A DNA stretch of 64,000 nt, taken from positions 45,207 through 109,206 of IMG/VR virus record IMGVR_UViG_3300042558_005120, one strand, 5' to 3'. Positions 8,407 through 54,463 of the stretch are shown here, one piece after another (the first letter of the stretch is position 1; the number at the start of each line of letters is the position of its first letter). Made by a program: the position numbers and the translations under genes. The notes under the pieces were generated by a model. That model searched no databases. It saw nothing but the letters and a program-made list of their open reading frames with translations, and was not told the origin of the DNA. The stretch is from a virus.

Positions 8407-10218
8407 TCAAACATAAAAAACACTGTCGAATCTGGATTTTACTAAATACCAAAACGGGTGCATTTCCTCAGGTGTTAGTTTCTGAAACTCTGTTTCACTT
8501 GTTCCAATTTCAATTACCTCAAGTGCATCTTTGTATAATTTTTTTGAAATTTTCTCAAGTTTCCATTTATATCCTTTTTCGCCCCAGATCGCTTTGAAAT
8601 TTTTTGTTTCCATCTCAAATAATTCATAATTATTTACAGAACAATAAATGTGCTCTGGTATAAAATTATCACATTTAGTAATTACTTTCTGAATAAGTGG
8701 AATGTCTAATATATAATATCCAAGAAAAATTTCATTTCGATTGTTTACAAATCTAGACGCTATTTTCTCAACGTCTTGAGTTTGCATATGAAGAAAATCA
8801 TCCTTTACATCGTGGAAAAGAATAATTCTTTTCTTTGTCTGTTTGTGGATATTCTCTAATTGGTCAACTAATTTTTTCGTAATTAAAGAAAGATTACATA
8901 CAACAACAGTTACCGCTTCTTTTTGCTCGTATGACCTTTCGCCGTCGAAAAAGGATTCTAATAAAACAATCGACTTTTCAACTTTACTGTCATCTGAGCC
9001 AGATTCTTTTTTATCTTCTTTCTTTTGACCTTCTTTTTTGTCTTCTTTCTTGTCTTCTTTCTTGTCTTCCTTTTTGTCTTCCTTTTTGTCTTCCTTTTTG
9101 TCTTCCTCATTTAAAATAAAATTAAACTCTAAAAAGGAATAGTCACTTTCAACAAGCCTTGAAATTTCTTCAATTTTTGTATTAAAGTTATTAACAATAC
9201 TTTCACTTAATAGACCGCTTGGGTATTTTGGCTTCTTTAAATTTGCTAGAAATACAGTAAACAAATATTCGTATCTACTATCACTTTCGATAATTTGACT
9301 TGTTGTTTTGTTTGAAATCCACTGCGAGTTGAAATTTCCACTTTTCTCTAAAAATTTAGGACGCTCCAGACCGGAATCCAAAAAGTCAGGTCCTTTTGCT
9401 TCAACAAAGGAATTAAAAATTTCTGATACGGTTTCCAAATATGCAATATCCGTATCCTTTGTGTCCGATTTAATTTTATTAATGTTAATTGTATTGATGT
9501 GCTCGCAAATTTCTAAAAGTAAAATATCAAAAAGATGCCCTCTCGATTCCTTTTTACTTTCAATAACTGTATCACTTTCAAGTTTGAAAAGCAAATCCTG
9601 TTGTTCAAATACAATCGAATCTATTTGCTGTTGGGCTTCATTTAGTAATCCTTTAACTGGGAAAAAGGATTCATTGATTTGCTCAGATTCAGATTTTGCA
9701 ATACTTACTAATTGTTCTATGCTTTCTTCACTGAGTTCACCTTCGAAAAGAGGTTTATTCCATTCGCACCCAAAAATACTTGACCATCTTTCTAAGACCT
9801 TTGAATCTTTGATGTCTCTGGAAATGTCTGAATCTGGTTTTCTGATTGTGATATCCGTTAAGACTAATCCTTTTCTAGGTCGTCTTTCATAACGTGTGGA
9901 TAACGGTGCATTGGTTGGAAACCATGAAAACCCGAACCGATGGCGTGGAGGTATTGAGTTTTTAATTTCGGACGGCAAGCTTTGAATATGCGTAATAGCC
10001 TGTTCATATAAGTCATTAATTGTGCGGTCAATTTTATTGAGCGGAACCTTTCCGTTCTTTCCATAGAAATAAATTTGATAATTATCTTGGTTTTTTTCAA
10101 ACGCAAACCGATAAGCATCGAACTTTTCAGTGATGCGGGTTTCTCGTTTCAGAGTCTCACGAAGACCTTTTTCTCCGACTTTTTTGTAGAGTTCTCTAAT
10201 ATTTTTAATCCCAGCCAT
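8407..10218 (-). CDS. Ligase-like nucleotidyltransferase-domain protein with KKED repeat
   Basis: 603 residues. The N-terminal 150 residues resemble the nucleotidyltransferase domain of RNA/DNA ligases. There is a motif-I-like ITEKFDAYRF with K32, though A replaces the usual G of KxDG, and a later block RFGFSWFPTNAPL...RPRKGLVLTDI resembles motif III/IIIa. A long helical middle follows, then a Lys/Glu/Asp repeat near residue 370-405 coded by a 12-bp tandem repeat. The C-terminal ~190 residues are alpha/beta, with VVVCNLSLI and KKRIILFHDVKDDF, and are not recognised. It has its own promoter-like motif at 10238. Whether the altered motif I is active is unknown. Confidence 0.5.
   Translation of the reverse strand: MAGIKNIRELYKKVGEKGLRETLKRETRITEKFDAYRFAFEKNQDNYQIYFYGKNGKVPLNKIDRTINDLYEQAITHIQSLPSEIKNSIPPRHRFGFSWFPTNAPLSTRYERRPRKGLVLTDITIRKPDSDISRDIKDSKVLERWSSIFGCEWNKPLFEGELSEESIEQLVSIAKSESEQINESFFPVKGLLNEAQQQIDSIVFEQQDLLFKLESDTVIESKKESRGHLFDILLLEICEHINTININKIKSDTKDTDIAYLETVSEIFNSFVEAKGPDFLDSGLERPKFLEKSGNFNSQWISNKTTSQIIESDSRYEYLFTVFLANLKKPKYPSGLLSESIVNNFNTKIEEISRLVESDYSFLEFNFILNEEDKKEDKKEDKKEDKKEDKKEDKKEGQKKEDKKESGSDDSKVEKSIVLLESFFDGERSYEQKEAVTVVVCNLSLITKKLVDQLENIHKQTKKRIILFHDVKDDFLHMQTQDVEKIASRFVNNRNEIFLGYYILDIPLIQKVITKCDNFIPEHIYCSVNNYELFEMETKNFKAIWGEKGYKWKLEKISKKLYKDALEVIEIGTSETEFQKLTPEEMHPFWYLVKSRFDSVFYV
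9039..9107. repeat. 12-bp tandem repeat coding for Lys-Lys-Glu-Asp
   Basis: Five and a half copies of the unit TGTCTTC(T/C)TT(T/C)T, with a degenerate copy just before. On the minus strand it reads KEDK repeats within the 603-residue ligase-like protein. Three units are identical to each other, so copy number is likely to vary by slippage without frameshift (12 is a multiple of 3). Confidence 0.9.
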
Positions 10219-10255: not shown

Positions 10256-10636
10256 TTAAATAAGGTAGCTTTCGGCGAAACCGGATGCGACCATTTTTTG
10301 GTTGATGTTTACATAGGTAACAGTTTTAATTCCTTCATTTAGTGTTGTAGTTTCCAAATAAATAGTGCCCAGGATCCTTCCGTATTTTTCAGATCGATCT
10401 TTGATACTTTCTAAAATAATTGATTTTCCCATTATCATTGATGCTAACCAAGATTTTGCTGCTAACCCAGACTTTCGAGTTTCGCCCTTAAGTTCAGGTG
10501 TATTAATTCCGTATAGTCTGATTTTTTGCTTGTGTAGTGTTGTCCAAAAACCAAGATCAATATCAACTGTAATAGTGTCGCCGTCATAGACATCGGTAAC
10601 AAATGCTTTGTAAAGATAAAAGTTATTTAGTTCCAT
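10256..10636 (-). CDS. Staphylococcal-nuclease-like (SNase, TNase) protein
   Basis: 126 residues, a compact SNase (OB-fold) nuclease. It carries VYDGDTITVDIDLG (calcium-binding Asp), IRLYGINTPE (catalytic Arg and Glu) and SEKYGRILGTIY (second catalytic Arg), all at the family's usual spacing. There is no signal peptide, unlike secreted bacterial homologues, so it would act in the host cytoplasm or virion. Possible roles are host-DNA breakdown or nucleotide scavenging. It ends just before the ligase-like gene's promoter motif and is preceded by a terminator at 10662-10685, so it may have a separate promoter that I cannot see. Confidence 0.85.
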   Translation of the reverse strand: MELNNFYLYKAFVTDVYDGDTITVDIDLGFWTTLHKQKIRLYGINTPELKGETRKSGLAAKSWLASMIMGKSIILESIKDRSEKYGRILGTIYLETTTLNEGIKTVTYVNINQKMVASGFAESYLI

Positions 10637-10661
10637 GGATAATTTATTTTTTGACTAAAAA

Positions 10662-10685
10662 AAGGTCACAATCAATTGTGACCTT
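10662..10685 (-). terminator. Rho-independent terminator after the holin candidate
   Basis: Near-perfect 11-bp palindrome AAGGTCACAAT / ATTGTGACCTT with a two-base centre, followed on the minus strand by a run of T. It lies 24 bases beyond the stop of the 57-residue holin-like gene and would close the transcript coming from the packaged-protein cassette. Confidence 0.75.
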
Positions 10686-10708
10686 AAAAACAAAGTTTAT
10701 ATGTTTTT

Positions 10709-10882
10709 CTATTTTCCAGCTTTGTCAATAATTGACCAAACGCCGCCGGTTAACGCAATTACTGAACCGCTGATTTCTGCCCATAACGGTTCGTCTAATA
10801 ATCCTTTCATAACAAGAATACCGCCAACGAATGTAAGTCCATGACGGACGATTCCTAAAATTTGTTCTTTTGTTAGTTTCAT
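10709..10882 (-). CDS. Small membrane protein, putative holin (Pam3-gp28-like)
   Basis: 57 residues. Two hydrophobic stretches, about residues 9-27 (LGIVRHGLTFVGGILVMKG) and 36-50 (ISGSVIALTGGVWSI), are separated by a short acidic turn, and the tail DKAGK is basic. The pattern matches the small putative holins of the Pam3-gp28 type, which sit in the host inner membrane and release endolysin. It is in the right frame for an A-rich leader (ATAATAATG) and ends just before a terminator. An overlapping frame in the same place is a shadow. The endolysin gene is 8 kb upstream on the same strand. Confidence 0.65.
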   Translation of the reverse strand: MKLTKEQILGIVRHGLTFVGGILVMKGLLDEPLWAEISGSVIALTGGVWSIIDKAGK

Positions 10883-10944
10883 AATAATAGAGTTTTTTTA
10901 AAATCCAAATTTCTTTGAACTGTATCAATTACTTTTCTAAATTT

Positions 10945-11601
10945 TTATTGTGCTATTTTAATATCTGTTGGTTTTATTATACTATCGAAAGTAACAACAG
11001 ACTTCATATCCTCTGGCATCAATGGGTCAACCCACCATGTATATCCCTTAGCGTTAATTTCCAATATAACCGGGTCGGGTATTTTAAAGTAATTAGTTAT
11101 TTTTCTTGCTGCTCCAATTGATGTTACGCCAAAAACAGCTGCGTATAATTGCATTGTAACATTTTCACCAGATAATCCTTTACTGAAAGTTGATGAGTGT
11201 GCCTGTGCCTCAGAAGCAATCAGCCCTTTTTGCATTATATTATCAAGATTTGCTTTTGCTGCAACGTGGAATACTTTTCTTGCTTTTACTGGTTTTGCAG
11301 CAATCATTGTTTTCATTTCGTTATCACTTGAATATCCTCTTAATGTTTTTAAAATAAGAATATTCTTATGCTGTCTACCATATTTTTCAATATCTGCTAA
11401 TGTTTGTTTGATTTGTAATTCAGTAGAGGTGTCTATATTTACTAACACTCCGTTATCGAATACTTTAACTTCGGCAAAGCCATTTTTTTTAAAAATAGCC
11501 GCAACATCTTGTTTGACTGCATTTGGATTGTAATTAGATTCATTGATTGAATCCAATTTAGACTCAAGCAAAAATTCATTAAATGTAAAAATTCTTTTCA
11601 T
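10945..11601 (-). CDS. Capsid-targeted protein, possible ADP-ribosyltransferase fold
   Basis: 218 residues. Leader MKRIFTFNEFLLE followed by S fits the packaged-protein family. Residues about 15-90 form an alpha/beta domain. From about 110 the block KVFHVAAKANLDNIMQKGLI, then an STFSKG segment and IPDPVILEINAKGYTWWVDP, resemble the core of ADP-ribosyltransferase-fold enzymes (H or Y in strand 1, 'I-x-x-GL' helix), including the KptA/Tpt1 RNA 2'-phosphotransferases. The comparison with T4 Alt, a packaged ADP-ribosyltransferase that modifies host RNA polymerase, is attractive, but the catalytic Glu cannot be placed with certainty. Last gene of the cassette before the holin candidate. Confidence 0.5.
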   Translation of the reverse strand: MKRIFTFNEFLLESKLDSINESNYNPNAVKQDVAAIFKKNGFAEVKVFDNGVLVNIDTSTELQIKQTLADIEKYGRQHKNILILKTLRGYSSDNEMKTMIAAKPVKARKVFHVAAKANLDNIMQKGLIASEAQAHSSTFSKGLSGENVTMQLYAAVFGVTSIGAARKITNYFKIPDPVILEINAKGYTWWVDPLMPEDMKSVVTFDSIIKPTDIKIAQ

Positions 11602-11609
11602 AATATTTT

Positions 11610-12047
11610 TTATTTTATTTCAACGTTGCGTTTTGCCTTAGCGGACAAATATTGAGGTATCAGTGTTTTGTAAAGTCTTCTGCGTTTTTCATCAGTTGCA
11701 TCAATGATTACAGTTTTGTCATAACCATATGAATCTAAAAATTTTTCTATGATTGTGGTTATGGTTTTAAATAAAGTTCTAACATTACCTTCACCGGTCA
11801 TCTCAAAAGTATCAATCTTATTAAAATCTCCTTTATCAAGTCCAAATGATAGATCAAATTTCCCTTCTTCTGCGCGGTATTCTCCTGAATAAAACACCAC
11901 TTTGTATTGTTGCGTTGGCGAATTAAAAGTATATTCAGCGGTAAGTAATTCATCTTCATCGTCATATTGTTCCTCTTCTTCTCGAAAAGGATATGGTTTT
12001 TCTAAACTTTCATTTATAAAGTCTTCAAATGTTTGGATGTGTTTCAT
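11610..12047 (-). CDS. Capsid-targeted protein, unknown (C-terminal GNAT-like hint)
   Basis: 145 residues, leader MKHIQTFEDFINE followed by S (I-x-E/S). An acidic stretch (EEEEQYDDEDE) follows the predicted cut. The body is beta-rich up to residue 90, then FKTITTIIEKFLDSYGYDKTVIIDATDEKRRRLYKTLI. A helix, a strand and 'D-E-K-R-R-x-L-Y' recall acetyltransferase-like domains in other phage proteins, but no acyl-CoA site can be pointed out. It lies nine bases upstream of the ART-like gene. Confidence 0.6.
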   Translation of the reverse strand: MKHIQTFEDFINESLEKPYPFREEEEQYDDEDELLTAEYTFNSPTQQYKVVFYSGEYRAEEGKFDLSFGLDKGDFNKIDTFEMTGEGNVRTLFKTITTIIEKFLDSYGYDKTVIIDATDEKRRRLYKTLIPQYLSAKAKRNVEIK

Positions 12048-12065
12048 TTTGTATTACTTAAATTT

Positions 12066-12968
12066 TTATTTACTGATGAATTTTTTGAATTTATCTAAAA
12101 ACTCAATAAAATCTTTATCAAATAAATTTATACTTATTCCAATATCTTTTAATGATTCGATATAGTCAGAGAAATATTTTTTATCATATATCGTAGATTG
12201 TTCCAGAGTTTTAATTCCTATATTTGGGTACATTTTTTTATAACCTATATAAGTTTTGTAGTCATTCTTCTCAACGTATTGTTTCAATTTATCCAAATTC
12301 CTATCAATTATGCCAACATTTTTTTTGTAATCAGAATCTTCTAAATTATCAAATGAATATTCATAAAATAATTTCTCTAAAGTATCGAAAGTTGTATTCC
12401 AATCATATATACTTTTGGCAAGATCATCTCCCTGAAATTTAGTTTTTACATATGGAAGTATTTCACTCTTTTTTAATTCTGAATCCTTAGCCCACTTAGG
12501 ATATTTCTTTTTTAATTTATCAAGTAATTTGGAAATCATTTCCGCAATCATGTCTGGCCAAATTATAGTATTATCTTTATAAAGCCCAACACCTTCGTCA
12601 TAAATCTCCTTGAAATCCCTTCCTTTATTTATATGCAAATAAACAGCGCCATACTCATTAGCATCAACATAAAATAGAGAAGTAATGTTTTTTCTATTTT
12701 GTGGGGTATTATCAACATCATAAAATTCAATGATTGAATCAATAATTGAATTTGTAACAACATCTATAATAATGCTGGACTTATTTATTCGAGCTACGTC
12801 AAATCTAATTTGCGTCTCATTCTTACCAATTTTAGTAAGACCTTTTTTATGACCCGTAATTTTGGTTAATGCATCAATTAAATTATTTGATATAAATGTC
12901 TTTGCATCGTAACTATCTAACGATTTCAATTCGTTTAAGAAACTTTCAAATGTTTGAATATATTTCAT
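12066..12968 (-). CDS. Capsid-targeted protein, unknown (300 aa)
   Basis: 300 residues, leader MKYIQTFESFLNE followed by L, so the P1' residue is unusual. The remainder is Lys/Asp/Ile-rich and mostly helical, with a central VYLHINKGRDFKEIYDEGVGLYKD segment and a long C-terminal helical part. It has no membrane segment, cysteine pattern or recognised motif. Its codons look even more A+T-rich than the neighbours. Sixteen to nineteen bases separate it from each flanking leader gene. Confidence 0.6.
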   Translation of the reverse strand: MKYIQTFESFLNELKSLDSYDAKTFISNNLIDALTKITGHKKGLTKIGKNETQIRFDVARINKSSIIIDVVTNSIIDSIIEFYDVDNTPQNRKNITSLFYVDANEYGAVYLHINKGRDFKEIYDEGVGLYKDNTIIWPDMIAEMISKLLDKLKKKYPKWAKDSELKKSEILPYVKTKFQGDDLAKSIYDWNTTFDTLEKLFYEYSFDNLEDSDYKKNVGIIDRNLDKLKQYVEKNDYKTYIGYKKMYPNIGIKTLEQSTIYDKKYFSDYIESLKDIGISINLFDKDFIEFLDKFKKFISK

Positions 12969-12983
12969 CTGTTTTTTGATATT

Positions 12984-13271
12984 TTATTCACCATACCAAG
13001 AATATCCATACTCTTCATATTTGCTATGGACTTCTTTTGGTGTTTTATCTTTATACCATGCAGAACCCAATTTTTGAGAAAGCCCTAATTTCACAGCTTC
13101 ACGTTCAATGGCATCCATTTTTTTAATTTCTGCCATGTTATAGTTAGAGTCCTTTACTTTTTGACCTTGTGCATACATATCATCAAGAAGTTTCTCTACT
13201 TTTTTAGGATCTAATCCCTCGTTTAGTTCTGCTTCATTCAAGAAGCTTTCAAATGTTTTGATGTGTTTCAT
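12984..13271 (-). CDS. Capsid-targeted small protein, unknown (95 aa)
   Basis: 95 residues with the canonical leader MKHIKTFESFLNE followed by A. A second possible protease site, ELNE before G, lies six residues on. The mature part is helical (KKVEKLLDDMYAQGQKV) and ends in a Tyr/Trp-rich tail EEYGYSWYGE. Function not recognised. It sits five bases after the stop-to-start gap with the next cassette gene; the leader DNA here is one of the best copies of the repeated anchor (see 13233-13271). Confidence 0.65.
   Translation of the reverse strand: MKHIKTFESFLNEAELNEGLDPKKVEKLLDDMYAQGQKVKDSNYNMAEIKKMDAIEREAVKLGLSQKLGSAWYKDKTPKEVHSKYEEYGYSWYGE
13233..13271 (-). repeat. Dispersed leader-coding repeat (39 bp), reference copy
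   Basis: The 39 bases coding MKHIKTFESFLNE recur with few changes at 13598-13636, 14290-14328, 52072-52110, 52416-52454, 54418-54456 and 54980-55018. Shared blocks include AAGCTTTCAAATG and ATGTGTTTCAT on the + strand. Conservation at the DNA level, beyond the protein need, suggests recent duplication or recombination between cassette genes. Confidence 0.8.
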
Positions 13272-13276
13272 AATAA

Positions 13277-13636
13277 TTATTTCTTTAATTTTTTAGCAAA
13301 GTTTATCAAATAATCATTAGCAAAGTCTTCTATTGTTTTTATATAGTCAGGTATTTTTTCAGTTCTAACTTTTATTGCTAATTTTCCCGCCTTTGTTAGA
13401 ATTAGAGCAACTTTGCCATCCTCATAACCTAATTTGTAATGACTGACATTTAATGTTTTATAAGTACCGAACTTATCGCCCATAGCTAATCCTAACCCAA
13501 CGTCTGCTTTTGGTAGATTCTGAGCTGGAATTTCGGAAGAAGGTACTGATGTAAGAATATAATTTAATGATTTACCTGTGGCTTCTATAATAGATTCTTC
13601 ATTTAAGAAGCTTTCAAATGTGTGGATATGATTCAT
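13277..13636 (-). CDS. Capsid-targeted small protein, unknown (119 aa)
   Basis: 119 residues, leader MNHIHTFESFLNE followed by E, then SIIE before A, a second site that fits I-x-E/A better. The body is alternating strands and short helices (KSLNYILTSVPSSEIP, GKVALILTKAGKLAIKVRTEK) and ends in a helix with KKLKK. No family is recognised. It is five bases from the downstream gene and 15 from the upstream one, so it is cotranscribed with the cassette. Confidence 0.62.
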   Translation of the reverse strand: MNHIHTFESFLNEESIIEATGKSLNYILTSVPSSEIPAQNLPKADVGLGLAMGDKFGTYKTLNVSHYKLGYEDGKVALILTKAGKLAIKVRTEKIPDYIKTIEDFANDYLINFAKKLKK

Positions 13637-13651
13637 CTGTTTTTTGTTATT

Positions 13652-13879
13652 TTATTCATCTCCGTAAAGTTCGTGATATTTTTTAGTGTGCTTGGACGTT
13701 TTTAGCAGTTTCTTGCCTTTAGTATCACCTGGCATTTCTTTGTATGCTTTGGGGTCATCGTCATCCATATCAGCTTGTTTTGCGATTTGTGCTTTCTTCT
13801 TGGCTGCAGTACTCTTTGAGATTCCCTTAAAGTAGCCGCCTTCTCTTACAAATTCTTCAAAAGATTGTGTATATTTCAT
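13652..13879 (-). CDS. Capsid-targeted small basic protein of a T4-like phage family
   Basis: 75 residues, leader MKYTQSFEEFVRE followed by G. The remainder (GGYFKGISKSTAAKKKAQ, DDDDPKAYKEMPGD, TSKHTKKYHELYGD) matches a short, Lys-rich protein I recall from many T4-like phages, usually called hypothetical. The basic mature part would suit a protein packed against DNA in the head. Four-base ATGA overlap with the receiver-like gene upstream couples their translation. Confidence 0.68.
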   Translation of the reverse strand: MKYTQSFEEFVREGGYFKGISKSTAAKKKAQIAKQADMDDDDPKAYKEMPGDTKGKKLLKTSKHTKKYHELYGDE

Positions 13880-14328
13880 TTTTCTACTACAAATTTTGGC
13901 TTGCCCTCTATGGCCTGTGTATATTTCTTACCTGTTTCCTTACTTAAAGCCTTTAAGTAATTGTTTATGTAACTAATAATGTTTTTGGCTCCAACCGGAT
14001 TGTCCGAATGTACTGTTATCTCAGGAAACTCTTCTCCACTAATGACTTTTTCATCACACAAGTCCATGTGATATTCCACCAGCCAGTCTGCTGCAGATTT
14101 ACCAGTCTTTTCAGAACCGCCTGTAAAATCATTAAGGTCGTGGTCAAAAGATATTTTGCTAATGTTGTCAAGGCCGTGTTTTTTGACCGCCTTTACAAAG
14201 TCTGAGTAGGTTCTAACAATAATCCACTTCTTGTCAATAGGAGTTCTCAGGTCATCCAGGTATATCCACACACCGTTAGAATTGCTGGATTCATTCAAGA
14301 AGCTTTCAAATGTTTTAATGTGTTTCAT
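13876..14328 (-). CDS. Capsid-targeted cyclic-phosphate-processing receiver (cREC)-like protein
   Basis: 150 residues: canonical leader MKHIKTFESFLNE followed by S, then a compact receiver-like domain. Motifs are WIYLDDLRTP (residues 21-30), ISFDHDLND (59-67), a KSAADWLVEYH helix, and ITVHSDNPVGAKN (104-116). The LDD-R, S/F-DHDL and HS-x-NP signatures are those of the cyclic-phosphate-processing receiver family (cREC), proposed from comparative genomics to act on cyclic phosphate ends, for example in RNA repair. All predicted active-site positions appear present. Being packaged would place it in the host before transcription starts. Confidence 0.7.
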   Translation of the reverse strand: MKHIKTFESFLNESSNSNGVWIYLDDLRTPIDKKWIIVRTYSDFVKAVKKHGLDNISKISFDHDLNDFTGGSEKTGKSAADWLVEYHMDLCDEKVISGEEFPEITVHSDNPVGAKNIISYINNYLKALSKETGKKYTQAIEGKPKFVVEK

Positions 14329-14337
14329 TATTATGCT

Positions 14338-14679
14338 TTATTTTTTAGGATTGAATCCAGAATCTCTTGCTTCTTTGGCTAAATCTTTATCTGCTTTCCC
14401 CCATGTTCCTTCACCGCCAGATAAAAAGCTGTTAACTCTGGCGTACGCCCACTGTTCCTGTCCTGCACCTGGACGGTGTCCGCTTTTCCATGCTGCCATT
14501 CCACGGCGAAAAACTGCACGAATTATCCCAATCGGACATCCGGATTCGTCGGCTTTATTCTTTACGCCGGTCTCCAGCTCTTCGCTGCCCAACGGTCCGC
14601 GGTCAGTAGACTTCTGTTCGTTATCATCGGCTTCGTGTAAATAATCCAGCAACCAGCTTTCAAATAATTTTATAAACAT
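14338..14679 (-). CDS. Capsid-targeted DUF5824-like protein
   Basis: 113 residues. The leader MFIKLFESWLLDYLHE followed by A is three residues longer than usual but keeps the F-E-x-W/F-L and L-x-E/A pattern. The body has the strongly conserved block of the phage DUF5824 family: a GIIRAVFRRGMAAWKSGHRPG run (about residues 51-71), then QEQWAYARVNSFLSGG, then KADKDL. This is one of the most conserved short phage sequences but has no known function. The Arg/His/Trp-rich motif suggests nucleic-acid contact (inference). Confidence 0.78.
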   Translation of the reverse strand: MFIKLFESWLLDYLHEADDNEQKSTDRGPLGSEELETGVKNKADESGCPIGIIRAVFRRGMAAWKSGHRPGAGQEQWAYARVNSFLSGGEGTWGKADKDLAKEARDSGFNPKK

Positions 14680-14680
14680 T

Positions 14681-15592
14681 TTATTTTCTTATTTTATTAA
14701 TATCCTCTACAAATACTTTAATTGCCTCTTCTGGGTCAAATATACTGAACTGTGGCGCTTGGTTAACTTCTAAAACATACCATTCACCTGTATCTTTATT
14801 TTGTACTAGATCAACACCAGACGTATAGAAACCCATAGAATCATGAGCACGTTTTGCTATATTCATTTCTTCAAATCCTAATGCTACTCTTTTGCCCGTT
14901 CCGCCTAATGAAATATTATTTCTAAATTCTCCGGCTTCTTGACTTGAGCGCTTAACTGTAAATACGTTTTTGTTTCCAATAAAGAAAACACGGTAATCAC
15001 AGTCATTCGGAATAAACTCCTGAATTAACAAAACATCATTTTTTAATTTTCCTGCTACTCGTTTTAATTCGGTTTCATTCTTAACAATTGTAACACCTCT
15101 TCCTTGTGAGCCGTGTGCGGGTTTTAAGACAATTGGAAATTCATAGTTAGTAGAAACAAAATCAACATTGCAACTTGAGCCTGTGCAGGTATATGTTTTA
15201 GGAATATTCACATTATTTTCAGATAGCACTTGTAGCTGTTTATATTTATTGCTAGTATATCTTGGTTGTCCGTAACAAAGAAGTGATATGTCCTTTTCTT
15301 TACAGTATTTTTCTACCAACAGAAAATTTTCATACGCATCTGTATCGGCACCATACGAATTAACCAATCCAATAAATACCAATGAATACTCATCTAATTT
15401 CGTTGTATTGTTGAATAGATGCCCATCAAAAAAGTGTATATTATCCAAACTTGAGAATTCTGAGTCGCTGATGTATTTTTTAGTTAACTTTTCTACATTA
15501 TACATCTTATCTTCCATATCACTACAGTCAAAGGAAAAATCTAAAAATAAAACAGGTTTACGTTTATCTAAAAAATCAAAATATGTAATCAT
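14681..15592 (-). CDS. ATP-grasp ligase, RimK-like
   Basis: 303 residues from the ATG at 15592; a longer frame starts with TTG inside a TGATATATAAAA promoter-like motif and is rejected. The N-terminal ~110 residues form a pre-ATP-grasp domain. The ATP-grasp fold follows: FPIVLKPAHGSQGRGV (nucleotide-binding Lys and Gly loop), LLIQEFIPNDCDYRVFFIG, and near the end DLVQNKDTGEWYVLEVNQAPQF (metal-binding Glu/Asn). Such enzymes join a carboxylate to an amine, as RimK adds glutamate to a protein. The substrate is unknown. It has no leader ending in x-E/A, so it is probably made in the host, although it sits within the packaged cassette. Confidence 0.82.
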   Translation of the reverse strand: MITYFDFLDKRKPVLFLDFSFDCSDMEDKMYNVEKLTKKYISDSEFSSLDNIHFFDGHLFNNTTKLDEYSLVFIGLVNSYGADTDAYENFLLVEKYCKEKDISLLCYGQPRYTSNKYKQLQVLSENNVNIPKTYTCTGSSCNVDFVSTNYEFPIVLKPAHGSQGRGVTIVKNETELKRVAGKLKNDVLLIQEFIPNDCDYRVFFIGNKNVFTVKRSSQEAGEFRNNISLGGTGKRVALGFEEMNIAKRAHDSMGFYTSGVDLVQNKDTGEWYVLEVNQAPQFSIFDPEEAIKVFVEDINKIRK

Positions 15593-15605
15593 ATGTAAGT
15601 AATTA

Positions 15606-15620
15606 TTTTTATATATCAAT
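15606..15620 (-). promoter_or_regulatory. Candidate late promoter (TTGATATATAAAA)
   Basis: Minus-strand ATTGATATATAAAAA, 14 bases before the ATG at 15592 of the ATP-grasp gene. It overlaps the end of the upstream gene and fits the GATATATA family. Confidence 0.5.
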
Positions 15621-16144
15621 TACCAAGGCTCATCGGATGTAAGACCTAATTGCTTATAAAAAAGCGATGGACCATAACACGCCCAGAACCCGGCCTTGTT
15701 TGGATCCATTTTTTTCTGTAAATCACATTGGTGTCTAGACCAAAAATTGGCTGCAGCACCAGGATCGCTATTTTTAATACTTAATCCAGAAGCATCGCCC
15801 CATTCTATCTTCTTTGCAATTATATTGCCTTTCTCATCCACTTTTCCGCTGTTTCGATATACAACGAATTTTTTGTTTCCACCTCTGCTAGGCGTATCTA
15901 ATTCAACTTGGCGGCCATCGTATATTGCCTTTTTTCCAACTTCTAAATTTTTTGCCATCCAGGCGGCTTTGTCATTAAGAATAATATTGCCTTCGTCCCA
16001 GTACTTTTTAGTCTCTTCAAAAAGGCTTTTGTATGCATCACTGCCTAAACGGTAAATGCTATTAGTAACGTCCAACCCATTGTCCATGTGGTACTGGAAC
16101 CCTTCACTAACCTGAAAGTCTTCAAATGTCTTTACGTATTTCAT
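15620..16144 (-). CDS. Capsid-targeted protein, unknown (174 aa)
   Basis: 174 residues, leader MKYVKTFEDFQVSE followed by G (V-x-E/G; one residue longer). The mature part has a central KKFVVYRNSGKVDEKGN beta stretch and then a conserved-looking block GAAANFWSRHQCDLQKKM...AGFWACYGPSLF. Two Cys and two Trp are spaced as in similar short phage proteins I recall but cannot name. It overlaps the preceding gene by 23 bases, so both starts are translationally coupled. Confidence 0.62.
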   Translation of the reverse strand: MKYVKTFEDFQVSEGFQYHMDNGLDVTNSIYRLGSDAYKSLFEETKKYWDEGNIILNDKAAWMAKNLEVGKKAIYDGRQVELDTPSRGGNKKFVVYRNSGKVDEKGNIIAKKIEWGDASGLSIKNSDPGAAANFWSRHQCDLQKKMDPNKAGFWACYGPSLFYKQLGLTSDEPW

Positions 16145-16505
16145 TCTTTAGTGCTTTTTCTATAGTTTTATCAACTCCCCATTCCGGTAAATCTGTATAG
16201 TCATCTTCACTCTTACCTTTTTCAAAACCACTATCTTCAATTTTTACCGCCATTCCTCGATATTTCTTTTCAAAATCTTTAAGTGATTTTTTCCCGGCAC
16301 CATCAAAAAACTTTCCGTCGTCTTCTATAAAGTAATGCTGTATTGTAGGACTTGGTTTATATGTTTTGTCAAGAATCCCCCATAGTTGTGACTCGGGATG
16401 TAAGGCTTTGTACGTAGCTGCATATGCCCCACAATAACCATCAACCGTCCAAGCAAGAGTTCCTGAATTGTCTGTAAAACTTTCAAATGTCTTTACGTAT
16501 TTCAT
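16122..16505 (-). CDS. Cassette protein with degenerate capsid-targeting leader
   Basis: 127 residues. Leader MKYVKTFESF is as good as any in the family up to position 10, but it continues TDNSG, so the L-x-E protease site is gone. Either the protein stays uncleaved in the head or it is no longer packaged. The body (WTVDGYCGAYAATYKALHP, QHYFIEDDGKFFDGAGKKS) resembles a small papain-like or toxin-domain start (C then H with G-rich turns), but no catalytic triad can be proven. It overlaps the next gene by 23 bases. Confidence 0.58.
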   Translation of the reverse strand: MKYVKTFESFTDNSGTLAWTVDGYCGAYAATYKALHPESQLWGILDKTYKPSPTIQHYFIEDDGKFFDGAGKKSLKDFEKKYRGMAVKIEDSGFEKGKSEDDYTDLPEWGVDKTIEKALKNEIRKDI

Positions 16506-16512
16506 ATATTAT

Positions 16513-16722
16513 TTATTTTTTATATTCTGGAGATTTTACTTTTTTACCTTTGTCGGGACCACCTTCTCTCGGTATCATACCTTGTGCAATCAATGAAGTT
16601 TTAACACCAAACGGAATATCCTTTCCGCTTTCATAATCCTTTTTATATTTATCAAGTGTTTCTTTTGCGTATGGCGAATCTTTTTCTTGTATAAAATATT
16701 CAAAGGATTTAATGTGTTGCAT
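16513..16722 (-). CDS. Capsid-targeted small basic protein, unknown (69 aa)
   Basis: 69 residues, leader MQHIKSFEYFIQE followed by K. The remainder has the IPFGVKTSLIAQGMIPREGG motif and a Lys-rich tail KKVKSPEYKK. The motif recurs in short phage proteins I have seen annotated as hypothetical. The mature peptide would be about 56 residues and basic, like T4 internal head peptides. It starts 13 bases after the neighbouring leader gene's end. Confidence 0.6.
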   Translation of the reverse strand: MQHIKSFEYFIQEKDSPYAKETLDKYKKDYESGKDIPFGVKTSLIAQGMIPREGGPDKGKKVKSPEYKK

Positions 16723-16735
16723 AAAAATAATTTAT

Positions 16736-16960
16736 TTAAAATTTAAGATTGCCACGTTCAACAGAATAGCCTTCCTTTGCTAAAATTGGTTCCACTGCTG
16801 TTGCGATTGCATTACCTAACTCTGTAAACAATGCCATATCAAAATTAACCAGACCCAATCCAATGACTGCGTTTTTAATATTATACCTTGATATAATCCT
16901 TTTTTCATTTATATCTTCTGATTCTGAAATCGAGAATTCTTCAAATTTTTTAATTTTCAT
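16736..16960 (-). CDS. Capsid-targeted small protein, unknown (74 aa)
   Basis: 74 residues, leader MKIKKFEEFSISE followed by S (I-x-E/S); a further DINE before K lies five residues on. The body has a Gly/Ala-rich amphipathic central part (IKNAVIGLGLVNFDMALFTELGNAIATAVEPIL) that could be a buried or membrane-active helix. No family is recognised. It lies two bases from the nucleotidyltransferase gene upstream, suggesting coupled translation. Confidence 0.58.
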   Translation of the reverse strand: MKIKKFEEFSISESEDINEKRIISRYNIKNAVIGLGLVNFDMALFTELGNAIATAVEPILAKEGYSVERGNLKF

Positions 16961-16962
16961 TT

Positions 16963-17568
16963 TTATAAGTATTTTTTTAATTCATTATAATATTTATGTA
17001 AAACAGGTGGCATCATTGAGTCAAATGTAGATTTATCATCAGCAGAAATTGCATTTCTAACTGCTGTTCCACTTGCGCCATCTTCATCTCTATTATTTAC
17101 TGACTTGACCATGAATTCCTCGGGTATGGAAATTCCATATTTTTCTTGAAACTGTTTAGCTCTCAGGATTTGCTTTTCATAATCAGATAAACGATCTGAA
17201 CCACACGCCATTCCAATGGGCTCGAAGCCGTCTCGCCTAATGAAATCTACCACGTTTGAAACAAAATTAGGATGCTCTCTGTCTGTCTTATAAATTATAA
17301 AATCAGCAATAAATGATCTATACTCCTTTGCGATATCTTTTCCTATTTTTGCTAAAAGCTGCTCTGGAAAAGGAGACTTACTGTTTTGTGAAAGTATTTG
17401 AACCGGAATAACCTTTGCGCCAAAAACTTCAGACGCTCTTTTGATTGAACCTAAGTGCCCATTGTGAAAAGGTTGAAATCTACCAGGGAAGTAAATTATC
17501 CTTTCTGAATTTGCTTCATATATTTGCGATTCGGCAAGAAATTCTAAAAATGAGTTAACGTATTTCAT
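16963..17568 (-). CDS. Capsid-targeted NMN adenylyltransferase-like (NadM/NadR-type) nucleotidyltransferase
   Basis: 201 residues: leader MKYVNSFLEFLAE followed by S, then a HIGH-superfamily nucleotidyltransferase. YFPGRFQPFHNGH (26-38) carries the (H/T)xGH nucleotide-binding motif in the form typical of NMN adenylyltransferases. MACGSDRLSDYEK follows in the middle, and ASGTAVRNAI near residue 168 is the ISSTxxR-like motif. Known NadM enzymes make NAD from NMN and ATP; related enzymes use other nucleotides, so the substrate is not certain. A virion-carried NAD-synthesis enzyme could offset NAD-depleting defences (inference). Its neighbour upstream is a packaged kinase. Confidence 0.78.
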   Translation of the reverse strand: MKYVNSFLEFLAESQIYEANSERIIYFPGRFQPFHNGHLGSIKRASEVFGAKVIPVQILSQNSKSPFPEQLLAKIGKDIAKEYRSFIADFIIYKTDREHPNFVSNVVDFIRRDGFEPIGMACGSDRLSDYEKQILRAKQFQEKYGISIPEEFMVKSVNNRDEDGASGTAVRNAISADDKSTFDSMMPPVLHKYYNELKKYL

Positions 17569-17577
17569 TTGAATTTT

Positions 17578-18492
17578 TTATTTAATATCCCAGTTTACTG
17601 GAGTATAGGCATTGATTTTTGCTAAAACATTATCAGCAATTTGCTCGGCCGCAATTGTTGGTTTGCCTGCTCTTTTTACATAAACGTAAAAAGACTCAGT
17701 TAGCATTACGGTTTTACCTTTTTTATGTCGAGACACAACTCCAATTTCGGCTGGAATAGTTTGTTGTTTTGTTACCACTTCAGTATCAACTCCGGCCTGG
17801 ACAAAAGTAAAGACAATATCGCCATTCATATATCTATTAATTTCTTCACCCATTGTAATAAGTTTTAGCATTGTTGCTGATGCACCTTCGTGGGTGCCAA
17901 ATAAAATATTACCCGGAACAACCCGAGAACGACTAAGGTTTTGTTGCTGTGCTACTGAAATATGATTAATAACCCATACAATATGAATGTGGTCCGGGTC
18001 ATATCCAAGTTCATTTGCAAATTGAGTAATCTCATTAAGTTTTTTGATGTTCTTTAAAGTAACATCAAAAATTAAATTAGGTTTTCGATCTGGAGCTGCT
18101 GCCAATACTGAAGCATACATTCTTTGCATCTTCTTTTCGTCTACGCCGTATTCATCACCAACCACTGCGTGTAACTGTGCAACATCTTCGGGTGTTTTGA
18201 GATTCATTTTTGTAATGTCTATTCCGGTTTCTGCTTTTGCTTTTGCCGCGAAATTCTTGCTTTTCATTGCGAGTGATTTCAGCTCATCAACATCAAACAC
18301 CCAGCCGTCAAGACCAATTAAATTATCTTTAATAAATCCTTTTCCGCTACCAGCACCACCTGCCATAATTACAATATTGCCAAACGGCTGATAAGGTTTG
18401 TTGTTGAAAACTATCAGTTTTTCTAATAGTTCATCTTTTGAATTGGATTCCCTAATAAATTCAGTAAGGGATTTTAAGTACTTTAAACCCAT
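17578..18492 (-). CDS. Capsid-targeted P-loop kinase (zeta-toxin/PNK-like)
   Basis: 304 residues: leader MGLKYLKSLTEFIRE followed by S, then a P-loop kinase fold. The Walker A motif is GGAGSGKG (45-52) in IVIMAGGAGSGKGFIKDNL, and WVFDVDELK follows as the acidic strand. PNLIFDVTLKNIKKL is the 'D-x-T' strand, and HIVWVINHISVAQQQNLSRSRVV is the lid with Arg residues. The order matches zeta-toxin and polynucleotide-kinase-like phage enzymes. The C-terminal 70 residues are beta-rich and not recognised. It is transcribed immediately before the NMNAT-like gene, nine bases apart, suggesting a joint nucleotide or RNA-end task. Confidence 0.75.
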   Translation of the reverse strand: MGLKYLKSLTEFIRESNSKDELLEKLIVFNNKPYQPFGNIVIMAGGAGSGKGFIKDNLIGLDGWVFDVDELKSLAMKSKNFAAKAKAETGIDITKMNLKTPEDVAQLHAVVGDEYGVDEKKMQRMYASVLAAAPDRKPNLIFDVTLKNIKKLNEITQFANELGYDPDHIHIVWVINHISVAQQQNLSRSRVVPGNILFGTHEGASATMLKLITMGEEINRYMNGDIVFTFVQAGVDTEVVTKQQTIPAEIGVVSRHKKGKTVMLTESFYVYVKRAGKPTIAAEQIADNVLAKINAYTPVNWDIK

Positions 18493-18506
18493 TTTAATAG
18501 TTTTTT

Positions 18507-19448
18507 TTATAAAGAAAGAAGCATATCAACAACCTCTTGTTGTGGAAACAAATCAACTTTTCCGGCTTGGACATTTGTATGTAACCATACGCCTGGGGTT
18601 TTATTACATAGTGCAACATCTACTTTGTCAAATGCGCTTATTCCATGTTTCTTGATTTGTTCAACAATACCTTTTCTTGGATCAATACCGTCACGGTTAG
18701 CAACCCAAAGAATCCAATCCTTTAGGACGGCAATCTGTTTGTCAGAATATCTGTGCCAATGTTTGAATCCTCTAAATGCCTGTGCTAATTCAACAATTTG
18801 TGATGGATGCGCTTCGGTTCCAACATAAGTATAATACGAATTTGGTTTTAGTGCAGTCCAAATATATTTTTTCTGAGCTGCATCGTATCTTTGATATCCA
18901 CCTTTTGTTAATTGTCCAAAATTACACACCTCAATACCCACACTTTCTCGGTGCATAGCATCGTTGCCCGTACCTAAGTGCCATCCGTATCCACCTTGTG
19001 GGAACACCTGAATTAGTTCGCCGTCGTGCTTAGTATTATTTCCAAGAATACTTTGTCCGCCTAAAACAAATTCAGTGGCAACAGCACCTCGATTATCATA
19101 GCCCCAAGTGGAAACCGCGCCGTTTGGATCGTGCCATCCTGCGGTGTGATGTAGAAATATCCAACGTTTATTTACAGGTCCTGGGAAAAATTCGCCTTTC
19201 GGTAAATAATTTTTTGCAAATGTTAAACCTGTGCTTGGTTCAGTAGTTTCGCTAATATCGGTTGTTGCGATTCCCATTGCAGCCCAAGTTTTTGGACCAA
19301 CAATCCCATCATCTACTAAACCATTTGCCTTTTGCCATGCTTTAACAGCGGCTTCTGTTTTTGGACCGAAATCACCATCAGCAGAAATCTTTAAAAACTG
19401 CTGAAGCAAAACAACTGATGCTCCAGTTGAACCTTTTTTCAAAATCAT
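18507..19448 (-). CDS. Endolysin: peptidoglycan-binding domain plus N-acetylmuramoyl-L-alanine amidase
   Basis: 313 residues. Residues about 3-58 are a PG_binding_1 domain (GSTGASVVLLQQFL, DGDFGPKTEAAVKAWQKANGL, DDGIVGPKTWAAMG). From about 90 comes an Amidase_2 domain that cuts the amide bond between muramic acid and the peptide: WIFLHHTAGWHDPNG gives zinc-ligand histidines H100/H101, then GYGWHLGTG, RESVGIEVCNFG, and a late WLHTNV. There is no signal peptide or SAR anchor, so release needs a holin; the 57-residue candidate lies further downstream on the same strand. A GTATATAATT motif lies upstream. Confidence 0.9.
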   Translation of the reverse strand: MILKKGSTGASVVLLQQFLKISADGDFGPKTEAAVKAWQKANGLVDDGIVGPKTWAAMGIATTDISETTEPSTGLTFAKNYLPKGEFFPGPVNKRWIFLHHTAGWHDPNGAVSTWGYDNRGAVATEFVLGGQSILGNNTKHDGELIQVFPQGGYGWHLGTGNDAMHRESVGIEVCNFGQLTKGGYQRYDAAQKKYIWTALKPNSYYTYVGTEAHPSQIVELAQAFRGFKHWHRYSDKQIAVLKDWILWVANRDGIDPRKGIVEQIKKHGISAFDKVDVALCNKTPGVWLHTNVQAGKVDLFPQQEVVDMLLSL

Positions 19449-19469
19449 ATTTTAAAAGTAATTATTTTT

Positions 19470-19483
19470 CGAAGTATATAATT
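19470..19483 (-). promoter_or_regulatory. Candidate late promoter (TTATATACTTCG)
   Basis: Minus-strand AATTATATACTTCG, about 25 bases before the endolysin ATG at 19448. A weaker relative of GATATATACT; a late lysis gene is an expected target. Confidence 0.4.
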
Positions 19484-19487
19484 ATTT

Positions 19488-20792
19488 TTATTTACTATAT
19501 ACGAGCATTCCTCTGAGTTGGTTAATGGGTGCAAATATCCCAGTATATTTATACTGCTTTCCTTTCCATACAAATGTAATACCTTCACTTGGTACAATTG
19601 AATCCAAACCGCCAACAGCAGCAATTCTTTCCAATTCTCTATTTAGTTTTTCGATTTTTACAGTATCATTACTTGCTTGGATTTGTTTAATTGCATTTTC
19701 AATTTCTTGGCGCATTGTTAAAGTTGCCTCGGTTGGATTTGCTGCTAAGAACGTATTGATATTTTTTAAAAACGTTGTTCCTACTTCTAAAAACAAATAT
19801 TCAACGGGTTTGATAATTTCCTTTTTTAATTTTGCCCCTTCTGTTTTTTCTAATTCGATATACCAATCTGCTGCGGTACCAAGATCTTTTTTGATGTTTG
19901 GTACTTTATAACTTTTGTCATCGAAATAAAGTCTTTTAACTAAAAGGTCAACAAAATCCGGTAAAATTGTATGCCCAGCATCTTTAATCATTTTGCTGAG
20001 TTGCATTTTACCCATTGCTGCAACATAGTCGCCAAGAGTTGAATCCCATTTTATTCCGGCATTCTGAACAAGTTCATTTATTTTTCCAATAAATTTTTTC
20101 TCTAACTCACCAGCATTTGGTAATGGAATTGACTCTATATTTTTAGGGCCACGGACATAGAATGTTGATTGGACATCTGCGTTTGCGGCTTTAATAAGAT
20201 TCCCTAATATATTTCCGGCTTCTTTGTCATTATCAATTGGCTCTCCAGCTTGATTGTAAGTTAGTATACCATGAAAAACTAACATATCCTGTCCATAAGG
20301 AATTACGTTTTGTGTTCTGGGCGTAATTACTTCAACTGAACCAAATTTTTCTCCATTATTAAATAATAGAATTTTGTCTTCATCTCTTAGTTTGCTAATT
20401 GCGCCCGAAAGATCTTCCATTGCTGTTCTAAACGCAACTTCAATTTCACCTCGACCTTTAAACATTTCGACTATACCATTGATGTCTAAAGCTTTTTCTC
20501 CAAAATTTTTCAAATGCCCTTTATTTCTCGCTCCAATCAACTCCCCATCCTTCCAAGAGAACATTAAATTTTGCCCATCTGTTTTTTCCGTAATAAAATT
20601 TTCTGGAGTAAAAAGACCATGGACGGTTGCAAGTATCATTTCCTTGAAATCTTCCATGGTCAATTCCATATCCTCAAAAGGATGATTGAGGTGCCCGTAG
20701 GCACCTCCTTCATTAAGTACGGATTCAAATATCCAAGAAGTATTGAATTGTAACTTCTCGTTAAGAAATTGTGTATATGATAGTAATGCCAT
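19488..20792 (-). CDS. Capsid-targeted KxDG ligase-like nucleotidyltransferase
   Basis: 434 residues. Two protease-type sites open the protein: MALLSYTQFLNE before K, and FESVLNE before GG (residues 22-28). The ligase-like core follows: FITEKTDGQNLMFSWKDG is motif I with K70, GELIGARNKGHLKNFG, and GSVEVITPRTQNVIPYGQDM resembles motif III. These are signatures of the covalent nucleotidyltransferase (RNA/DNA ligase, capping enzyme) superfamily. A matching GAYGHLNHPFED opening is seen in T4-like cyanophage proteins, as I recall. The C-terminal half is helical. Substrate unknown; end-joining of RNA or DNA is inferred. Confidence 0.65.
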   Translation of the reverse strand: MALLSYTQFLNEKLQFNTSWIFESVLNEGGAYGHLNHPFEDMELTMEDFKEMILATVHGLFTPENFITEKTDGQNLMFSWKDGELIGARNKGHLKNFGEKALDINGIVEMFKGRGEIEVAFRTAMEDLSGAISKLRDEDKILLFNNGEKFGSVEVITPRTQNVIPYGQDMLVFHGILTYNQAGEPIDNDKEAGNILGNLIKAANADVQSTFYVRGPKNIESIPLPNAGELEKKFIGKINELVQNAGIKWDSTLGDYVAAMGKMQLSKMIKDAGHTILPDFVDLLVKRLYFDDKSYKVPNIKKDLGTAADWYIELEKTEGAKLKKEIIKPVEYLFLEVGTTFLKNINTFLAANPTEATLTMRQEIENAIKQIQASNDTVKIEKLNRELERIAAVGGLDSIVPSEGITFVWKGKQYKYTGIFAPINQLRGMLVYSK

Positions 20793-20798
20793 TATTTA

Positions 20799-21809
20799 TT
20801 ATCCTTTATTTAACCTACCAATTGCAGAACCCCAATCGCCTGATTTCTCAGCATCCTTTGCAAGGCCGTCAATTACTTTATTAGCAATTTCTTCATCGAA
20901 ATTATCCGGGTGTTGTTTCTTTAGGATTTTCATTGCATATTCACGGAAATCTTCTTTGTTTTCGATTGTTCCTTTGCCTGCACGGTCCTGAGCTTTTTTC
21001 GCATCTTTGATAGCACCCTTTGATTCAGCTTCAGCATCCTTTGCCTTTTGTTCAGCATCTTTTGCCGCAGTTTCCGCCTTTTTGACTTTTGATTCTAATT
21101 CTTTAGTTTCGTCTTTAATCATTTTTTTGATGTCTGCTTTGTTGATTTCAGCTTCGCTAACTTCGTTTTGGAAAACTGGGTAAACCTTTCCGTTAAATTC
21201 GAATTCATCTAATCCTTCTTCGATTGCTTTTGCTCTTGCAGCCATCCAAGCGTTACCTTCGTTTAAAACAGTAAACTTAGTTCTATATTTTAGAAACGAC
21301 ATTATTTCACCGTATGATGTAGATTCTGGGTGTGAAGGTTTTCCAGTAGAATCTATGGTTCCTTTTTTCGTGTCAACGGTAATTGTAAAGCTTCCAGATT
21401 TAGGTTTAATCGTTAAGATATCCCCGGTCACATTAACAGCCATATATTTACCTTTCAAAAATGTAGCAAAATGACTTTGATTTTTATTTAAAAAGTCTTT
21501 AAGTTCATCAGGATGAGTCATTAAAATTTCTTCATTTAGATATAAATTATAATTGAAATTTCCTTCGGAGACACCAAATTCTTTTACATCCTTTTTACCG
21601 GACTCGCTTGCACCTTGGCCTTTCTCCCAGTCTTTGGTAATTTCGCTAAAGAATTCTGATTTTTTGTCAGCTGACAAATCAGCAGGAGATTCAACTCCAT
21701 ATTTTTTCAGTTTTGCAGAAAAGTATTCTTGATAGCTTTGTTGCAATTTTGATAGTTCACGCTTTTCAGCTTCGCGGACAGCATCTGCCCATTCTGAGAT
21801 TTTTTTCAT
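20799..21809 (-). CDS. Possible prohead-core or cleaved head protein with coiled coil
   Basis: 336 residues. The opening MKKISEWADAVRE before A has the same 13-residue spacing as the packaging leader, though it lacks the F-x-x-F core. Further protease-like sites are YLNE before E (about residue 93) and VLNE before GN (about 186). The segment after the latter (a GNAWMAARAKAIEEGLDE run, then FEFNGKVYPV) resembles a repeated phage motif. Residues about 220-280 form an Ala/Lys/Glu-rich coiled coil. Multiple cut sites and a coiled coil recall T4 scaffold-core proteins, but this is not proven. Another reading is a non-structural helper of the adjacent ligase-like gene. Confidence 0.5.
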   Translation of the reverse strand: MKKISEWADAVREAEKRELSKLQQSYQEYFSAKLKKYGVESPADLSADKKSEFFSEITKDWEKGQGASESGKKDVKEFGVSEGNFNYNLYLNEEILMTHPDELKDFLNKNQSHFATFLKGKYMAVNVTGDILTIKPKSGSFTITVDTKKGTIDSTGKPSHPESTSYGEIMSFLKYRTKFTVLNEGNAWMAARAKAIEEGLDEFEFNGKVYPVFQNEVSEAEINKADIKKMIKDETKELESKVKKAETAAKDAEQKAKDAEAESKGAIKDAKKAQDRAGKGTIENKEDFREYAMKILKKQHPDNFDEEIANKVIDGLAKDAEKSGDWGSAIGRLNKG

Positions 21810-21829
21810 TTTTTATTGATTTTTATTTT

Positions 21830-22207
21830 TTACATTTTCATACCATATTGGTTAAATCCGCCAAAATGGCCATTTACCATATCACTAACTTTTTTATTAA
21901 CGGCTTTTACTTTACGTTCAGATGCTTTTGCGAGACGTTCAATAATATCACTGTCAATTCGCATTCTTTTGTCCAAACAGTAAACAATAGTAGAAACGCA
22001 TTTGTTAACAGTATCAATTTTATCGTCCCCCATTCCTTTCATAAACTCATCGTATAGACTTCTTCTAAGCGGCTCAAGGGTTTCATCGGAAAAGTTAACT
22101 GAAACTTTAATATCTGAGATGTTATCTGTCTTCATAATACTTCCGGCGTTTGTTAATCCTTTTTTGCCTTCAATTAGAAAATCAGTATATGTCATAATCC
22201 ATCTCAT
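21830..22207 (-). CDS. Capsid-targeted small protein, unknown (125 aa)
   Basis: 125 residues. MRWIMTYTDFLIE followed by G gives the 13-residue leader; an internal ATG (Met5) would give MTYTDFLIE, close in length to the T4 leader MKTYQEFIAE. Because a TATATATT motif ends only a few bases before the first ATG, the second start is possible. The body is helical and basic (PLRRSLYDEFMKGM, ERLAKASERKVKAVNKKVSDMVNG) and ends with a Gly/Phe tail. The position of Arg/Lys helices recalls ribbon-helix-helix-like small proteins; no family is certain. Confidence 0.58.
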   Translation of the reverse strand: MRWIMTYTDFLIEGKKGLTNAGSIMKTDNISDIKVSVNFSDETLEPLRRSLYDEFMKGMGDDKIDTVNKCVSTIVYCLDKRMRIDSDIIERLAKASERKVKAVNKKVSDMVNGHFGGFNQYGMKM

Positions 22208-38346: not shown

Positions 38347-38365
38347 TGTTCGATTATTTTACCTT

Positions 38366-38378
38366 TTAGTATATATCA
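38366..38378 (-). promoter_or_regulatory. Candidate late promoter (GATATATACTAAAA)
   Basis: Minus-strand TGATATATACTAA lies about 25 bases before the ATG at 38346, beside the stop of the 2487-residue gene. The 14-base core GATATATACTAAAA is identical upstream of the genes starting at 8358 and 56964. Confidence 0.62.
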
Positions 38379-51771: not shown

Positions 51772-52110
51772 TTAACTATAAGATATTTCAATACCTTCTC
51801 CACCAGTACCATCTTCTAATACAATAGTTTCTCCATTTGAAAATTCTAACTGTACTTCATACAGATCTATTTTTACATTTTTAATAGCAGTATTTTTTAT
51901 TTGTGTTTCATCACCTGATGCAATATCTATATCTGCACCGCCAGCACACGCAAAAGATATATTTGTAGTAGGAGTTACTAAAACAAACTCACCTGACTTG
52001 GTTAAATATTGAGCCTTAATAATTTGCTTACCAGCGCTTATCAATTTTTTTTCTTCTGGTGAGTTGTTTGCTTCATTTAAGAAGCCGTCAAATGTTTGGA
52101 TGTGTTTCAT
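51772..52110 (-). CDS. Capsid-targeted protein, unknown (112 aa)
   Basis: 112 residues, leader MKHIQTFDGFLNE followed by A. After a short helical NNSPEEKKLISAGKQIIKA the rest is all beta: EFVLVTPTTNISFACAGGADIDI, KNVKIDLYEVQLEFSNGETIVL, and an end GGEGIEISYS. The N-terminal helix plus jelly-roll-like sheet could be a small binding domain, but no family is recognised. Last gene of the second cassette before a terminator. Confidence 0.62.
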   Translation of the reverse strand: MKHIQTFDGFLNEANNSPEEKKLISAGKQIIKAQYLTKSGEFVLVTPTTNISFACAGGADIDIASGDETQIKNTAIKNVKIDLYEVQLEFSNGETIVLEDGTGGEGIEISYS

Positions 52111-52121
52111 TATATGTTTTC

Positions 52122-54074: not shown

Positions 54075-54087
54075 AATGTTTTGTTTC

Positions 54088-54456: not shown

Positions 54457-54463
54457 AATTTTT

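Follow-up and report, generated by a model that had tools for sequence, protein, structure and literature searches.

A leader-bearing nucleotidyltransferase and its neighbouring P-loop kinase are likely head-packaged proteins of a marine T4-like phage

Two adjacent minus-strand genes of a marine T4-like phage, one for a 201-aa nucleotidyltransferase of the HIGH superfamily (NTase; 16963–17568, MKYVNSFLEFLAESQIYEANSERIIYFPGRFQPFHNGH) and one for a 304-aa P-loop kinase (17578–18492, MGLKYLKSLTEFIRESNSKDELLEKLIVFNNKPYQPFGNIVIMAGGAGSGKG), encode proteins that we consider probable internal head cargo of the T4 type, injected and acting jointly in nucleotide, cofactor or RNA-end repair at entry. Our best reading is of a swappable, head-packaged kit for processing nucleotides or RNA that would be active as infection begins. 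Positions refer to the window, the whole 64,000-nucleotide stretch analysed, unless stated otherwise. Its source is an AT-rich viral record of 109,206 bases with a UvsW-like gene and other T4-type genes; by ORF inspection, without a family match, we also read sheath, tube, portal and terminase genes as probably lying elsewhere in the record. Outside the window (record positions 10543–14078 and 32951–38513), terminase, helicase and RecA-like genes are apparently split by intein- or homing-type insertions. The initial annotation had described two neighbouring leader-bearing genes, a GRFQPFHNGH nucleotidyltransferase and a GGAGSGKG kinase, and both ORFs are present as described.

The leader is common to about 20 genes of this phage, and chance is excluded by its strand distribution. 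A leader pattern occurs in 19 of the 133 minus-strand ORFs of the record (18 are real and one, in UvsW, is doubtful) and in none of the 107 plus-strand ORFs, while 500 shuffles gave an average of 1.3 and a maximum of 5. Its usual forms are MKHIKTFESFLNEA. The NTase opens with MKYVNSFLEFLAE (17530–17568, minus strand), which bears an L-A-E site and forms a separate helix of lower confidence in the structural model; the kinase leader, MGLKYLKSLTEFIRE (18448–18492, minus strand), was assigned from the pattern and from relatives. A stricter pattern is present in 56 of 70 kinases and 51 of 87 NTases, against a background of 8/215 opposite-strand ORFs and 179/952 other same-strand ORFs, the latter including other cargo. 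Kinase orthologues of Lw1, KP15, Morganella, Vibrio, Aeromonas and Cronobacter phages (45–49% identity) begin with short leaders, for example MKSFKDFVSLDEA. Within the clusters of L022 and L023, two loci with NTase relatives, most leader genes share a genome-specific leader (MKNIPTFEDFVNE and MKHVKLFEQFVNE). These two genomes and the window each have one nearly uniform leader of their own across cargo genes, as if leaders co-evolve with their receptor or are homogenised by gene conversion.

Between leader and mature domain, both proteins contain the motif [I/L]-x-E: LAE and IYE in the NTase, IRE and LLE in the kinase. The second candidate protease site of the NTase, I-Y-E|A (17515–17523, minus strand), directly precedes the folded domain; several cleavage sites per propeptide have likewise been reported for SPN3US head proteins. 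At the protease-type site of the kinase, L-L-E|K (18421–18429, minus strand), L22 and E24 are invariant in all 46 aligned relatives, to the same degree as the P-loop. With a more permissive pattern, [ILMVA]-x-E, a site is found ahead of the kinase domain in 70 of 70 distinct relatives.

T4 internal proteins bear a capsid targeting sequence, MKTYQEFIAEA, which the leaders of the record resemble. As reviewed in two papers, the T4 sequence guides proteins into the prohead core and is cut off by gp21, and the internal proteins have an anti-host function at entry (PMC5694885, PMC3012670). The present system is like the T4 internal proteins (IPI-III, Alt) in its short common N-terminal leader, its glutamate-ended cleavage site and its diverse cargo; it differs in having about 20 leader genes, several of which code for an enzyme domain (kinase, NTase, ligase-like or cREC), and in that a protease of its own genome is not within this phage's fragment. 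Both gp23 and a prohead protease of the S77 (gp21) type are present in 13 of 13 fuller relatives, whereas the S77 protease and Gp23 families gave no match in the 109-kb record or in a sibling contig, both of which are fragments.

A leader-bearing NTase of the same broad family, S-SCSM1_91 (MKSFLQFLKEA...), carries the annotation 'virion protein', which the neighbouring SSCSM1_89, 90 and 92 share. This annotation is consistent with published mass spectrometry, and a cytidylyltransferase was detected in S-CREM2 and S-SZBM1 virions as well. Virion presence thus rests on the experiments of others, for a relative, and the S-CREM2 authors note that co-purification could explain the detection of such enzymes. 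A literature search for virion detection of the kinase found no publication, and no mass-spectrometry record of it in virions, which weighs against the preferred reading, as does the fragmentary record with no detected protease or major capsid gene. Among cyanophage NTases the leader was seen in S-SCSM1_91 and S-RIM8; these proteins are only ~20–30% identical to the window NTase, which belongs to a GRFQPF clade. The accessible portions of the cyanophage virion papers on NMNAT-like proteins make no mention of a targeting leader.

Taken together, the leader, the conserved L-x-E, the protease in relatives and the leader-bearing relative in virions make packaging of both enzymes, as the initial annotation had it, very likely and strongly supported by relatives; we infer it from these comparisons, since it is not contained in the sequence itself. 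Because both proteins carry a cleavable head-loading leader, they probably enter the cell along with the DNA, by analogy with T4. It is highly improbable that the leader is some other localisation tag or a conserved translation or recombination element. The fragment without a detected protease or capsid gene would fit such a role, as would a recombination border marked by leader DNA (see below), but L-x-E is invariant ahead of the mature domain across phages and a leader-bearing relative is among virion proteins.

The other leader genes of the window lie on the minus strand in a first run (starting at 10945, 11610, 12066, 12984, 13277, 13652, 13876 and 14338; 10945–14679), a further group next to the NTase (15620, 16122, 16513 and 16736; 15620–16960) and a second run (51772, 52122, 54088, 54602, 55032 and 55738; 51772–56118). 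The product of 13876–14328 has a cyclic-phosphate processing receiver (cREC) domain (PF20274, E 3.9e-21), and 14338–14679 is a DUF5824 gene. Also within the cluster, at 14681–15619, is a RimK-like ATP-grasp ligase (PF08443, E 1.4e-31). ADP-ribosyltransferase-like stretches were seen in two leader genes, 10945–11601 of the window and s28938 of the sibling (L190/L191) (FHVAAKANLDNIMQKGL; YHGTNSIMADDILKNGF); Pfam and PHROG searches with 10945–11601 gave 0 matches. The 650-aa leader-bearing product of 52122–54074 has a P-loop-like motif, GTSSAGKS, and a second, internal leader (MKHIQDFESFLNEA), which suggests two joined cargo units with a putative protease site between them.

The NTase has the HIGH-type GxFxPxHxGH and S-x-T-x-x-R (SGTAVR) motifs and a nucleotidyltransferase fold. 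In its nucleotide-binding motif, GRFQPFHNGH (17455–17484, minus strand), G29, R30, P33, G37 and H38 are invariant across 52 aligned relatives. An alignment-based scan of viral contigs with the NTase gave matches where a single-sequence scan had returned 0. Pfam assigns it to CTP_transf_like (34.3 bits, cut-off 21) and PHROGs to phrog_3041/395, 'cytidyltransferase'. The AlphaFold2 model has a mean pLDDT of 91.6, and Foldseek places PPAT first by E-value, with NadD giving the best TM-score (0.60) and NadM reaching 0.47–0.49.

These data bear on the proposal of the initial annotation that the pair rebuilds NAD, with an injected NMN adenylyltransferase and a nicotinamide-riboside-type kinase restoring NAD+ ahead of NADase defences. 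An action of virion-borne NMNAT-like proteins on host NAD has already been proposed for cyanophages, whose authors name the relatives NMNAT (PMC9602691, PMC10665884). The GRFQPFHNGH and SGTAVR motifs agree with this identity, and the best match of the GRFQPF-clade profile is archaeal NMNAT (8e-13, versus 9e-7 for PPAT); with a narrow profile built from the four closest relatives of the NTase, the two tie. Every NMNAT equivalog score of the NTase itself is far under its cut-off: 22.4 bits against 181 for archaeal NMNAT TIGR01527, confined to the HIGH-motif region, and 25.4 against 127 for NF002243. The NadM-Nudix proteins of phages Moby and X1, scored by the same method, reach ~296 bits, a value below the strict model cut-off of 397. 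Moby and X1 carry a window-type NTase gene in addition to this separate, genuine NadM-Nudix and NadV pair, and in the partial 109-kb record no NadV or Nudix gene was detected. PPAT and NadD both stand above NadM in Foldseek. In NMNAT a tryptophan stacks against the nicotinamide, a role that another aromatic residue could take over; the NTase contains 0 tryptophans. The NMNAT identity, for which the motifs and the clade profile speak, is thus possible and unproven, set against the equivalog scores, the Foldseek ranking, the narrow-profile tie and the coexistence in Moby and X1. We regard NAD rebuilding as unlikely, and RNA or nucleotide repair as at least as likely as a NAD role. The 'cytidyltransferase/NMNAT' label on the family is corrected by this analysis.

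The kinase P-loop, GGAGSGKG, lies at 18337–18360 (minus strand). The protein belongs to phrog_5268 (E 4.9e-97, function unknown) and matches the Pfam family Zeta_toxin (PF06414) with 33.3 bits against a cut-off of 22.3, over residues 113–192 only. Its model is moderate (pLDDT 77); Foldseek with it ranks polynucleotide kinase first and lists Zeta, AvrRxo1 and Pnkp1, with low TM-scores (0.31). A PDB profile search with the window kinase returned nothing useful, while the kinase of L055 matched Zeta in PDB at E 1.2e-4. Judged from the model and these matches, the kinase resembles polynucleotide kinase and Zeta, and its part in the NAD scheme finds no support. Nicotinamide-riboside kinase was rejected as an assignment, there being no NadR-RNK or NRK match in Pfam, in NCBIfam or among the PDB matches listed. 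The family occurs in 208 records, including the cultured RB43, Lw1 and KP15 groups, whose phrog_5268 kinases, 45–49% identical to that of the window, have the same leader and L-x-E architecture and are annotated as hypothetical, zeta toxin or head morphogenesis proteins. In the neighbourhoods examined, the kinase of these phages has no NTase of the window family beside it, as is so in Straboviridae such as Lw1, a point against the preferred reading. In Tenacibaculum phage PTm5 (L008, 4891–6732), an intein-like insertion splits the kinase exactly inside its P-loop (GGAG|C...).

The Zeta likeness raises the alternative of host take-over, in which the kinase would act Zeta-like on UDP-sugars and the NTase would make or charge another activated metabolite or coenzyme of the CoA type. 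The above-cut-off Pfam match, the L055 result and PPAT as the top fold of the NTase all fit, but the Zeta profile is matched in part only and an unsystematic look for an epsilon-like antitoxin identified none; we think this role improbable.

In 7 loci the NTase and a homologue of the kinase lie side by side, and in 3 (L080, L095 and L096) they are fused in the order leader-NTase-kinase. The combination of a HIGH NTase and a P-loop kinase, and their order in these fusions, are those of NadR (NMN adenylyltransferase plus ribosylnicotinamide kinase), a point in favour of NAD rebuilding to which L095 adds a weak NadR match; the kinase here is Zeta/PNK-like, in contrast to NadR, and NadR scores are all far under cut-off. 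A common pathway for NTase and kinase is probable.

In a large group of loci (L016, L024–L029, L031, L033, L036, L039 and L042), the NTase forms the C-terminal part of a fusion with a protein showing the pattern KxDG...EGIVF...K, which is degraded in some members. The window has a relative at 8407–10218 (minus strand), a ligase-like protein that has no leader and ends in a recognisable but degenerate NTase domain. Its degeneracy is inferred from a multiple alignment with relatives of the L016, L024–L042 group, in which the motif is intact: GRFQPFTLGH has become CNLSLITKKL, and hhalign of this NTase end covered the last 22 residues only, with a probability of 0.4%. The active-type NTase of the window is a separate leader gene beside this degenerate end, and in L023 the ligase-like protein lacks the C-terminal NTase end and a separate leader NTase is present. 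The ligase-like fusion proteins have no leader, which counts against the preferred reading of head cargo. A second KxDG family, represented in the window by 19488–20792 (minus strand; EKTDG ... EGITFV ... K), has DUF6267 as its cyanophage form. In several phages it is found beside the NTase family, and its members in the window, L016, L023 and Melnitz carry a leader. The Melnitz NTase forms one polypeptide with domains matching the products of 14338–14679 (DUF5824) and 15620–16144, the latter by eye.

These partners speak for RNA-end repair, in which the PNK-like kinase, the KxDG proteins and the NTase would mend tRNA, of host or phage, that nucleases triggered by entry have cut, with the NTase supplying or recycling a nucleotide cofactor. 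Foldseek's polynucleotide kinase and Pnkp1 matches, the cREC gene inside the cluster and GDIDI-type Pol-beta-like genes near the NTase in Moby, X1, L022, L023 and L102 (by motif only) point the same way. Yet profiles of the ligase-like families gained no support from comparisons with PDB or with phage RNA ligase, so that 'ligase-like' is a motif-level label, a weakness it shares with the preferred reading; the Pfam RNA_ligase match (PF09414) is weak and limited to one fusion, in L024 (E 0.015). The Pol-beta label had no Pfam or PHROG match for L102 5527–6447 and its relatives, and the kinase likeness carries the low TM-scores and moderate model given above. This form of repair is a tentative possibility.

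Comparison with the sibling contig (L102/G001) indicates how such cargo may change hands. Over 14310–21849 the two are ~94–96% identical in DNA on both flanks, whereas the NTases are 47% identical in protein, and the block of DNA homology breaks off within the NTase leader, ~30 bases in. Where the siblings differ in gene content within the cluster, the genes concerned are leader genes: 12984, 13876 and 16122 in the window, and s28938, s29752 and s32735 in the sibling. This supports modular cargo exchange between phages, one sibling pair being a single case. The recurrent adjacency and fusion of NTase and kinase, the fusion of NTase and KxDG protein and the exchange of sibling NTases with a border in the leader are new here. 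A bolder extension, to which we give well under even chances, is a virion-delivered modular repair kit of kinase, HIGH NTase, KxDG ligase-like protein and cREC, in which a phage's own leader would be what makes a protein cargo, and recombination within leaders would swap alleles in an arms race at DNA entry.

Under the preferred reading of T4-type head cargo, the N-terminal leader would take NTase and kinase into the prohead core, the prohead protease would cleave behind [L/I]-x-E, and the mature enzymes would be packaged alongside the DNA and then injected. In the host, the kinase would phosphorylate a substrate and the HIGH-fold enzyme would add a nucleotide, most likely AMP, to the phosphorylated compound, with the leader-tagged ligase-like proteins working together with both. 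Most likely, the enzymes would serve to repair or restore, early on, a nucleotide, cofactor or RNA end that the host attacks at entry. The presence of the kinase in cultured, laboratory-tractable phages makes virion presence, N-terminal processing and a knock-out phenotype directly testable. If the reading is true, the signature of leader and L-x-E would predict, in T4-like, cyano- and jumbo phages alike, which proteins are the first to enter the cell, and would yield many candidate immediate counter-defence enzymes.
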